Made by a program: the position numbers and the translations under genes. A stretch of 64,000 nucleotides of DNA from positions 1 through 64,000 of IMG/VR virus record IMGVR_UViG_3300020438_000019; one strand, given 5' to 3'. The notes under the pieces are model-generated. The model ran no database searches. It was not told where the DNA came from and saw nothing but the letters and a program-made list of their open reading frames with translations. Shown piece by piece: positions 1,443-53,213 of the stretch (the first letter of the stretch is position 1; every line of letters begins with the position of its first letter). Source of the stretch: a virus.

Positions 1443-1799
1443 ATGACTACTGAAAATACGGGGTCGCCACATGACCCCGACTATAATATCTCTGTGAGTT
1501 CTGCTCCAGATAATATACGTGCAGAGTACACACCTCCTGTAGGGTCTCCTGCCGAACGGACGTATAATCCTAATAAGCATTATCCCGATTACGTTTACGA
1601 GAGGGCAATGGACGGCGGTGTGCCTGATCCAGAATTTATGTGGCCTGATGACGGTCCTGATAAGACTCAGGAGATGTTACATAGAATTTCCGATGGGTTT
1701 AATAAGATTTTGATCCATCAAAGAGACAATAGCGAAAAACTTGATAAATTACATAAATTGTTAACTGATCATATCAATGACACAAAACCAACCGCATAA
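1443..1799 (+). CDS. Hypothetical protein, 118 aa, Pro/Asp-rich with C-terminal helix
   Basis: The N-terminal two thirds are rich in Pro, Asp, Tyr and Ser and look disordered. The last 40 residues form an amphipathic helix (from about 'TQEMLHRISDGFNKIL') ending in a Leu/Lys heptad pattern, suggesting oligomerisation or docking. The 3' end overlaps the following oxygenase-like gene by 23 bases. No recognised family; a small virion or assembly protein is possible given the late context. Confidence 0.6.
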   Translation: MTTENTGSPHDPDYNISVSSAPDNIRAEYTPPVGSPAERTYNPNKHYPDYVYERAMDGGVPDPEFMWPDDGPDKTQEMLHRISDGFNKILIHQRDNSEKLDKLHKLLTDHINDTKPTA

Positions 1800-2466
1800 T
1801 GAATGCTTTGTCCCATTTGGGCCATTAGTCTATAAAGGTGATGTAACAGGTGAGTTTTTAGACTTCCTCAACAAGCACCTTGATTCAGTACGATTAGATA
1901 ATACAGATGTTCGTGATAAGTTAGTTGGTAACATAGGAGCTCAAAAAGCTGCTCCGTACCCACAAAAGGAGTTTATGGGGTTTGTTAAACCTCATGTACA
2001 TAATTACCTCAAGGGGTGTTATGAAAGAGAGGTAGCAACAGATCGTTGCTGCAAGGAAGGAAGGAATGCAGATAGATTTTTAGATCCAGATAATCATAAG
2101 CTTAGTTTTAATCTAGGGGATGGACCTTGGGTTAATTTTTCAGCTATGAATGAGTTTAATCCTATACACAACCATAATGGTATTATAAGTGCTGTTTTAT
2201 TCATAGATATACCAGAAGCTCTTAAAGAAGAAAGGGAGACAAATGGATTCATAGCAGAGACAGTAGGATGCTTAGACCTAGTACATAATAATCAACACGC
2301 CGTAATAAATCCTAAGACAGGGAACCTTTATATGTTCCCTTCTTATCTATGGCATTTGGTTTATCCTTACCATTCTGATATTGAAAGAATATCAATGTCC
2401 TTTAACTTAACGGAAGTGAGGTTTGATGACATGCATATGGAAGGTGGAATTGTAAACTATCACTAA
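1777..2466 (+). CDS. Putative 2OG/Fe(II)-dependent oxygenase (2OG-FeII_Oxy_5 type)
   Basis: A 229-aa protein with the layout of the 2OG-Fe(II) dioxygenases common in cyanophages. The proximal iron ligands are His131-x-His133 within 'FNPIHNHNG', followed by a hydrophobic strand ending 'LFIDIP'. The distal His193 lies in 'FPSYLWHLV', and Arg204 in 'RISMSFN' is the expected 2OG C5-carboxylate anchor. The reaction expected for the family is oxidative decarboxylation of 2OG coupled to hydroxylation of an unknown substrate. The sequence does not reveal the substrate; virion proteins, host proteins and nucleic acid are all possible. First of three oxygenase-like genes directly upstream of gp25. Confidence 0.8.
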   Translation: MTQNQPHNECFVPFGPLVYKGDVTGEFLDFLNKHLDSVRLDNTDVRDKLVGNIGAQKAAPYPQKEFMGFVKPHVHNYLKGCYEREVATDRCCKEGRNADRFLDPDNHKLSFNLGDGPWVNFSAMNEFNPIHNHNGIISAVLFIDIPEALKEERETNGFIAETVGCLDLVHNNQHAVINPKTGNLYMFPSYLWHLVYPYHSDIERISMSFNLTEVRFDDMHMEGGIVNYH

Positions 2467-2472
2467 AGAACA

Positions 2473-2619
2473 ATGGAAGACTTATACCCTAGAGGAGCAG
2501 ACGAAGAAGTTAATACTTTACTTACTGAAGCAGATGCTGATGTATGGTTAAAGAAGACTAAGAAGAGAGATATTAATAAAGCGAAAACTGAAGACCTATA
2601 TCCACATGAACAAACCTGA
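2473..2619 (+). CDS. Small hypothetical protein, 48 aa
   Basis: Fills the gap between two oxygenase-like genes and overlaps the next by 14 bases. The peptide is charged and helical, with a Lys/Arg-rich centre (residues 27-37). The short motif EDLYP occurs at both ends (residues 2-6 and 40-44), suggesting an internal duplication or a repeated docking motif. No recognised family. Confidence 0.55.
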   Translation: MEDLYPRGADEEVNTLLTEADADVWLKKTKKRDINKAKTEDLYPHEQT

Positions 2620-51280: not shown

Positions 51281-52080
51281 TGTTAGGAACACATTTTTAT
51301 AACGAAACAATTCGTAGAACCGTTGTAGGGTTCGGTACTCTTTTTAATAATATAGAAATTAAAAAGAAAGACCCACTCAACAATGAGGTGATAGAAACTG
51401 AGAAAGTAGCATTAGGTTATGGTCCTAAGAATAAGTTTCTTTATCGTTTATTTGAAAACCCTAAGACCCAAAAGGTTGCTATTACTATGCCTCGAATGTA
51501 TTTCGAGATGACTGGTATTGATTACGATTCAGCAAGAAAGACTAGTCCAGTAAGAAAATATAAAAATGTTGTACAGGGTGATGGTAAAGAGGTAAGGGTA
51601 CAGTATGTACCAGTACCATACACTCTAGGATTTGAACTTGGAATACTGTCTAAGGATCAAGATACAGGACTACAAATACTTGAACAGATATTACCATACT
51701 TCCAACCAGCTTTTAATATCACTCTGAACATGGTTCCTGATATGAGTGAGAAGAAAGACGTTGCTATCACTCTCAACTCAATTAATATGGAAGATGAGTG
51801 GGATGATAGTTTCTTAGAACGTAGGTTGGTAGTATATACATTACAATTTACTGCTAAGACATTCCTATATGGTCCTTACAACAAGGCAGATATTATTCGT
51901 AAGGCAACTGTATATGAGTCTATTGGTGATAATGCAGTTGGTAGACGTGCTGTTAAGATGGAATACACACCTAAAGCTAAGACAGATAAGAACCTAGATG
52001 GACAGGTTGATGCTAATGATGATATACTAGTAACACCTGATGATGATTTTGGATTTAATAGTGGGTTTGAAATATTATGA
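51280..52080 (+). CDS. 15: Tail completion/sheath terminator protein gp15, with EF-hand-like loop
   Basis: 266 aa (T4: 272). 'LGTHFYNETIRRTVVGFGTLFNNI' at the N-terminus and 'KNVVQGDGKEVRVQYVPVPYTLGFEL' in the centre are clear gp15 signatures. In T4, gp15 forms a hexameric ring closing the tail and binding the neck. Residues 236-247 fit an EF-hand/dockerin-type calcium loop (Asp236, Asn238, Asp240, Gly241, Asp244, Asp247), close to the C-terminus. Coupled to gp16 by an ATGA overlap. Confidence 0.93.
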   Translation: MLGTHFYNETIRRTVVGFGTLFNNIEIKKKDPLNNEVIETEKVALGYGPKNKFLYRLFENPKTQKVAITMPRMYFEMTGIDYDSARKTSPVRKYKNVVQGDGKEVRVQYVPVPYTLGFELGILSKDQDTGLQILEQILPYFQPAFNITLNMVPDMSEKKDVAITLNSINMEDEWDDSFLERRLVVYTLQFTAKTFLYGPYNKADIIRKATVYESIGDNAVGRRAVKMEYTPKAKTDKNLDGQVDANDDILVTPDDDFGFNSGFEIL

Positions 52081-52499
52081 GCGATCAAATATTTGAAAAG
52101 AACATGGAAGAGATCTTTGATGTTGATGTATCCAACACACCCGAAGGTGGTTGTGCTAAACGTAAGGATCAAATCAGAGATGTCTCAGAGGACAGAGATA
52201 AAGACTATGAATATACCAGAGGGGAATTGTATAGTCTTATAGATCAAGGTCAGGAGGCGGTCAGAGGGGCGTTAGAGGTCGCACAGGAGTCAGGGCATCC
52301 AAGAGCATATGAAGTTGCTACAAACGCTATGAAGCAGGTAGCAGACATGACTGATAAACTCATGGATCTACAGAAGAAAGTTAAGGATCTAGATGAGGAT
52401 AAGAAAGGTCCAAGTAAGGTTACAAACAATGCTATGTTTGTAGGTTCCACAGCAGAGCTTCAGAAGATGTTAAAACAAATGAATGGTGGTAAACGATAA
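52077..52499 (+). CDS. 16: Terminase small subunit gp16
   Basis: 140 aa (T4: 164). The central 'LYSLIDQGQEAVRGALEVAQ' and 'PRAYEVATNAMKQVADMTDKL' helices followed by 'VTNNAMFVGSTAELQKML' match the T4 gp16 family. The protein forms oligomeric rings that recognise DNA and stimulate the gp17 motor. Unlike T4, nine accessory genes separate it from gp17 here. Overlaps gp15 by 4 bases. Confidence 0.93.
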   Translation: MSDQIFEKNMEEIFDVDVSNTPEGGCAKRKDQIRDVSEDRDKDYEYTRGELYSLIDQGQEAVRGALEVAQESGHPRAYEVATNAMKQVADMTDKLMDLQKKVKDLDEDKKGPSKVTNNAMFVGSTAELQKMLKQMNGGKR

Positions 52500-52514
52500 C
52501 AAATATATTATATT

Positions 52515-53213
52515 ATGAATCAATTGGAAGCATTAAATCCTTGGCCGACAATCTTTAAGAAAAAATACGACTTTGATTTTGAGAATAAGTTAAAGACTAA
52601 GGTCGTAGATTCTCTTAAAGCAGCAGATGGGTTTATAAAATCAATGGATATACCGACACCAGAAAAATCTGGTGGTGTTACTTCTGTTGTTTTGTCTCAG
52701 AATCCACAACATCCTCAGCCTCATGAATGGCCAGAGTTTGTTCAGTTTGAACAATTCGTTATGCGATCTACAGTTGAGGTACTACGCAAATGGCATTGTG
52801 ATCCTGGTGTTGAAAGAGCAGTCATGAAATCATGGATTAATGTCCACCCTCAAGGAGCTTATACCGAAGAACATAATCATCAGGGAGTTCTTATGGCTGT
52901 TGCTGCTTATTTACATGTTCCAAAGAACGGTGGAAATCTTTTAGTAAAGAATCCATTAACTTCTTATAAGTTTGGAGAACCAATACATCGTCAATATTTT
53001 AGTGAGTCTGAAGGAAGAGATGGATTGGAATGGACACAAATACCTGTTGAGACAGGAGATGTGTTATTCTTTCCAGGATGGTTAACCCATAAGACACAGA
53101 AAAATCTGGCCAAAGAAAATAGATTTGTTATGTCTTGGAATGTATCGTATGCAACTGATGCTCAAATGGAAGTAGCCTATAGGAATAAATATTCAAGGAG
53201 ACCTAATGGTTAA
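52515..53213 (+). CDS. Putative 2OG/Fe(II) oxygenase between gp16 and gp17
   Basis: 232 aa. Begins 'LEALNPWPTIFKKKYDF', typical of 2OG-FeII_Oxy_5 proteins ('..FPTPIW..'). Iron ligands His120-x-His122 ('TEEHNHQGVLMAVAAYL') and distal His192 ('FPGWLTHKTQ'), with Arg203 in 'NRFVMSWN' as 2OG anchor; all present. First gene of the cassette inserted between the two terminase subunits. Substrate unknown. Confidence 0.82.
   Translation: MNQLEALNPWPTIFKKKYDFDFENKLKTKVVDSLKAADGFIKSMDIPTPEKSGGVTSVVLSQNPQHPQPHEWPEFVQFEQFVMRSTVEVLRKWHCDPGVERAVMKSWINVHPQGAYTEEHNHQGVLMAVAAYLHVPKNGGNLLVKNPLTSYKFGEPIHRQYFSESEGRDGLEWTQIPVETGDVLFFPGWLTHKTQKNLAKENRFVMSWNVSYATDAQMEVAYRNKYSRRPNG

Follow-up and report, generated by a model that had tools for sequence, protein, structure and literature searches.

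Both the multiplicity and the dispersal of 2-oxoglutarate (2OG)/Fe(II)-oxygenase genes in cyanophages are already published, with expansions described in S-SCSM1 (24 genes), S-CREM1 (10) and S-SZBM1 (9) (PMC9602691, PMC9964418, PMC9146016). Hot spots for variable genes have also been reported, among them the gp46-gp25 and gp16-gp17 slots (PMC3037559). The DNA analysed here is a 64,000-nt stretch (the window) of an IMG/VR virus record of 80,893 bases. As in the phages listed above, many diverse copies lie dispersed in one T4-like cyanophage-type genome. Unlike there, seven genes fall within a virion-rich 64 kb, and the set appears to include a conserved inactive paralogue, of which the available portions of those reports make no mention.

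All seven open reading frames named in the initial annotation (at 1777, 2606, 3189, 45577 (-), 46422 (-), 48368 and 52515) are present. We consider it quite probable that this T4-like cyanophage-type virus carries them as accessory oxygenases open to exchange, in variable slots flanked by conserved virion genes, and that their location reflects hot-spot insertion and replacement, not a shared task in particle assembly.

Source and gene order

The gene order of the window is of the T4-like cyanophage type (gp25, gp6, gp8, giant fibre/baseplate genes, gp13-gp16, gp17-gp22), and the portal protein is ~70% identical to portals of Synechococcus phages (e.g. S-WAM2, S-PM2). The host is likely a cyanobacterium. 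A search for psbA in the record and two related contigs found none, Rfam and tRNA scans gave no matches, and a tandem repeat search returned nothing relevant. Positions 28387-38754 of the window encode a fibre-like repetitive protein of 3455 aa with many GSGSLFTAGGAAES-type repeats and just 1.2% Lys.

Plus-strand oxygenase-type genes

Three plus-strand genes, 1777..2466, 48368..49000 and 52515..53213, are of the 2OG/Fe(II) oxygenase type PF13759/TIGR02466, and 3189..3794 (+) is of the type PF13759. The first slot, which holds 1777, 2606 and 3189, is bordered on the right by the baseplate wedge gene gp25 (3823..4221, +); the second slot is bordered on the right by the gene of the neck protein (head-tail adaptor) gp13 (49035..49871, +), and 52515 occupies the gp16-gp17 slot. 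All four score above the curated PF13759 cut-off of 27 bits: 1777 with 67.5 (Pfam E-value 1.5e-18), 3189 with 34.3 (3e-8), 48368 with 53.5 (3e-14) and 52515 with 57.6 (2e-15). Together with an eighth copy outside the window (see below) they resemble PF13759/TIGR02466/phrog_81, yet all of them score below the TIGR02466 subfamily cut-off. Members of PF13759 have HxH at the place where classic enzymes have HxD, and the HxH...H arrangement of the solved structures 2RG4 and 3BVC recurs here. The pattern HxH...H...R is kept in the relatives of 1777 (H131, H133, H193, R204), 3189 (H106, H108, H167, R178; invariant, n=5) and 52515 (H120, H122, H192, R203; invariant, n=5). In 48368 the pattern is HxH...H (H115, H117, H179; invariant, n=7), the basic residue not being listed as invariant among its relatives. 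Both structures align residue by residue with 52515, the metal-site and Arg positions matching. No biochemical function for the PF13759/TIGR02466/phrog_81 family was found in this analysis.

The fifth gene, 2606..3187 (+), is of the PKHD type (PF13640; 49.8 bits, cut-off 27, E = 7e-13). The pattern HxD...H...R is kept in its relatives (H116, D118, H175, R185; invariant, n=10), as it is in those of 45577. The catalytic core aligns with the PKHD-type hydroxylases 3DKQ (Sbal_3634) and PiuC, whose HxD, H and R match, yet 2606 scores far below the equivalog cut-offs, and this analysis provides no evidence that it shares their substrate.

These five genes are unremarkable representatives of two well-known families of phage enzymes. 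The initial annotation had assigned all seven genes to the 2OG oxygenases or close relatives; profiles and conserved metal-site residues bear this out for six, which appear to be intact enzymes of the 2OG/Fe(II)-oxygenase type, the exception being 46422. Judging from family and conserved residues, each of the six would coordinate Fe(II) through a His-x-Asp/His...His site and, consuming O2 and 2-oxoglutarate and releasing succinate and CO2, would oxidise a substrate of its own. The proposal that so diverse a set serves several substrates also appears probable: the oxygenase-type genes of the window fall into three profile families, and pairwise identity among them is 22-30%, over local alignments that are short.

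The minus-strand pair

The gene 45577..46425 (-; likely ATG start at 46419) encodes a DUF6445/phrog_1644 protein (PF20043, 26.5 bits, cut-off 24; phrog_1644, E = 5.7e-19) in which HxD (residues 148-150), a distal His and an Arg are invariant (8/8). Its neighbour 46422..47333 (-) appears to be a degenerate paralogue, with weak matches alone to DUF6445 (0.029) and phrog_1644 (1e-8). Homology to 45577 is indicated by blastp (2e-6) and hhalign (probability 74%, E 3e-5), and sequence comparison relates phrog_1644 to 46422 as well. HxD is missing from 46422 in 8/8 sequences, which makes it a probable pseudo-enzyme, i.e. a homologue and not an active member of DUF6445/phrog_1644; in L006 and L007 the distal His is replaced by Asp as well. 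Its relatives share 64-78% overall identity despite the loss of HxD, a C-terminal WDS[DN]Y motif is conserved, and dN/dS is 0.41-0.56, compatible with a protein that is kept without being catalytic. The protein may act as partner or regulator of its operon mate 45577.

Across nine phrog_1644 members from isolate cyanophages only ten alignment columns are invariant, and HxD, the distal His and the Arg are among them. Weak PF13640 matches were obtained for 3/9 of these members; a PDB profile search with the nine gave no match, nor did comparing the phrog_1644 profile with that of the 2606 family. Divergence was too great for a search of viral contigs with the phrog_1644 alignment, and 45577 is too diverged to be detected by tblastn in phage records. 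AlphaFold models reached a pLDDT of only 38 for 45577 and 34 for 46422 (8 close sequences each), low-confidence values that go with shallow alignments; a double-stranded beta-helix is a presumed fold for both proteins. In contrast to the five genes above, 45577 and 46422 seem to form a separate small lineage-specific pair, one member intact-looking and the other devoid of catalytic residues.

RefSeq cyanophage records label the DUF6445/phrog_1644/T4-GC323 family 'minor coat protein'. No entry of that name occurs in the portions of published virion proteome tables available to us, and this PHROG name has no support in this analysis. The varied gene positions and the invariant HxD/H/R argue for a likely enzyme. 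Other PHROG names on RefSeq cyanophage proteins are 'DNA endonuclease V' (phrog_274/2297) and 'ferrochelatase' (phrog_3531/2954). Proteins with these labels or with 'minor coat protein' (e.g. L002:29721-30440, L011, L028) have 2OG-oxygenase profile matches or HxD...H...R. All three labels look misleading on such proteins.

Transcription context

The pair is preceded by 47326..47817 (-), a member of the function-unknown family phrog_431 with a weak DUF6561 match. A link of 47326 to a T4-GC139-like gene (L008:4874-5293) was considered and rejected, as the two share weak PHROG matches only and give no pairwise alignment. The cassette 47326-46422-45577 is oriented opposite to the virion genes. A putative sigma-70-type promoter, TTGACA-17-TACAAT (47842..47870, -), lies ~25 bases upstream of the start of 47326. 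No other such match occurs in the window, where 0.31 would be expected, and 6/6 relatives examined have both boxes unchanged. At positions 47835-47870 the promoter spacer and nearby bases are conserved like the boxes, and an imperfect palindrome, TTATA...TATAA, surrounds TGTACA. This palindrome is a possible operator. A bidirectional terminator-like hairpin of 12 pairs (45549..45578), present in 5/5 relatives examined, closes both the plus-strand fibre unit and the minus-strand cassette.

Late-type ATAAATA motifs number 12 on the plus strand of the window and 0 on the minus strand, their total count being below, not above, the shuffled expectation. One at 296..302 (+) would head the unit of 1777, 2606, 3189 and gp25; another at 47885..47891 (+), divergent from the sigma-70-type promoter, would head that of 47872, 48368, gp13-gp16 and 52515. 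The genes 1777, 2606, 3189, 48368 and 52515 are thus probably part of late virion transcripts, a timing compatible with a virion role, while the minus-strand pair belongs to a separate unit of the sigma-70 type, which suggests a timing unlike that of the other five.

We tentatively suggest that 47326-46422-45577 could be a separately, probably early, expressed unit, inserted head-on among the late virion genes and retained across the whole phage lineage, in which a 2OG oxygenase is heteromeric with a catalytically dead paralogue. No description of such an enzyme/pseudo-enzyme cassette was found in the literature searched, and this is the sole part of the gene set for which that holds.

Copy number and genomic location

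That cyanophages carry many such genes, as the initial annotation stated, agrees with the published expansions and with six isolates, which have 7-23 oxygenase-type loci each, spread across the genome. Locus density is 0.99 per 10 kb here vs 0.39-0.99 in the isolates; number and density are ordinary for this phage group. The four separate places in the window are real. The genes do, however, extend beyond the virion block: the record has an eighth oxygenase-type gene (PF13759/phrog_81; 37% identity to 1777 across 111 aa) at genome positions 72841-73476 (L008:9342-9977), directly after gp46 and outside the window.

The gp25-gp21 block of the six isolates holds 8/80 loci vs 22.1 expected by length (p = 2e-4), a deficit that is overstated because virion genes are giant and that rests on a crude length-based null, with adjacent genes undercounted by the merging of matches. 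All 8 loci are found upstream of gp13, at most 13 kb from it; this one slot does therefore recur, beside fibre genes. Oxygenase genes occur just upstream of gp13 in several lineages (S-WAM2, S-SSM7, S-RIM32), and the slot of S-SSM7 is inside a sugar-chemistry cluster. There, the stretch from tail fibre to gp13 (L028:3809-16848) contains carbamoyltransferases, a tryptophan halogenase, a heptose kinase, a phosphoheptose isomerase, three 2OG-type and two phrog_1644 genes. The gp16-gp17 slot of S-WAM2 holds petE and gnd. A phrog_20456 gene is found near a 2OG gene in two contexts, at 53706-54149 of the window (gp16-gp17 slot) and at L043:6968-7363 (beside nrdB-2OG). The impression of a 'virion gene block' pattern is mostly a window effect.

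Exchange and co-inheritance

In close relatives gp25, gp6, gp15 and gp16 are 97-99% identical, vs 71-93% for 1777, 2606, 3189 and 52515, and relatives L034-L036 are without 1777. Differences between the window and L033 at 4-fold-degenerate sites, where a change is silent in the protein, amount to 0.30 in 1777 and 0.24 in 3189 vs 0.03 in gp25+gp6 (Fisher test, p = 1e-10 and p = 4e-8, respectively). These substitutions indicate that 1777 and 3189 are exchanged without the virion genes beside them. The same is perhaps true of 2606 and 52515, which display a weaker excess at 4-fold sites (p 0.02-0.03; L033, L053). In L003 the 4-fold divergence of 45577, 46422 and 48368 is the same as that of gp13; genes of the gp13 slot look co-inherited. 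More distant relatives of 2606 (54% identity) are located behind nrdB, near talC, and L030 has another 2OG pair between the ribonucleotide reductase (RNR) genes and talC.

Substrates and alternative explanations

On the preferred reading of exchangeable accessory oxygenases, insertion and replacement in known hot spots would have brought the genes next to virion genes, and the likeliest substrates would be small molecules, glycans or host proteins, ahead of the neighbouring virion proteins.

One form of this reading, possible if somewhat doubtful, is envelope or glycan chemistry, in which the enzymes, especially those of DUF6445/phrog_1644, oxidise sugars or lipids during host surface remodelling or fibre glycosylation. 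The phrog_1644 genes of S-SSM7 occupy two sites, one of them directly upstream of gp13, among genes for glycosyltransferases, a nucleotide-sugar epimerase, UDP-glucose dehydrogenase, a heptose kinase and carbamoyltransferases, and one in Sf-FS3 is near fucosyltransferase and glycosyltransferase genes; such neighbours make the idea a reasonable conjecture for the DUF6445 type. However, other phrog_1644 genes lie beside phoH, gp55/gp47 or a 2OG cluster, and the scanned genes of the window include no glycosyltransferase.

The initial annotation had suggested, as a possibility, that virion proteins are hydroxylated during assembly; several enzymes would then modify residues of giant baseplate, fibre or neck proteins at the late stage. 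We regard this as quite unlikely. The genes do adjoin baseplate, fibre and neck genes, five of them are in units that the late-type motifs at 296 and 47885 would head, and the gp13-slot position recurs in other cyanophages. Against this, enzyme genes are lost or exchanged while their virion neighbours are still 97-99% identical, homologues sit beside RNR and talC, the virion block of the isolates is not enriched, two of the slots are published hot spots, and the unit of 45577 and 46422 has a sigma-70-type, not a late-type, promoter. Collagen-like GXY tracts were looked for in the giant fibre/baseplate proteins, and none were found. The virion proteome of S-SZBM1, a phage with nine 2OG genes, lists no 2OG protein, and the accessible proteome text mentions none for S-SCSM1 (24) or S-CREM1 (ten); some proteins detected in these proteomes are unnamed, and absence from the particle would still be compatible with virion proteins as substrates. 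Since five genes are probably in late transcripts, a joint hydroxylation of virion proteins is conceivable for these late genes.

A role in lowering or sensing 2-oxoglutarate, and by this NtcA-dependent nitrogen control, or in DNA repair, as proposed earlier for cyanophages (PMC3037559) and reviewed since (PMC9146016), appears very doubtful, as distinct conserved families suggest specific substrates and the S-SZBM1 genes are scattered, not placed between uvsY and uvsW (PMC9146016).

Implications

Tempting as it is, the idea that virion proteins are hydroxylated has a weak basis, and these data remove it for most of the genes; their position beside virion genes mostly reflects variable slots. 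The least ordinary part of the gene set is 45577/46422, which would represent a small, testable enzyme/pseudo-enzyme pair. Moreover, a cyanophage family labelled 'minor coat protein' bears an invariant oxygenase-type HxD...H...R signature.
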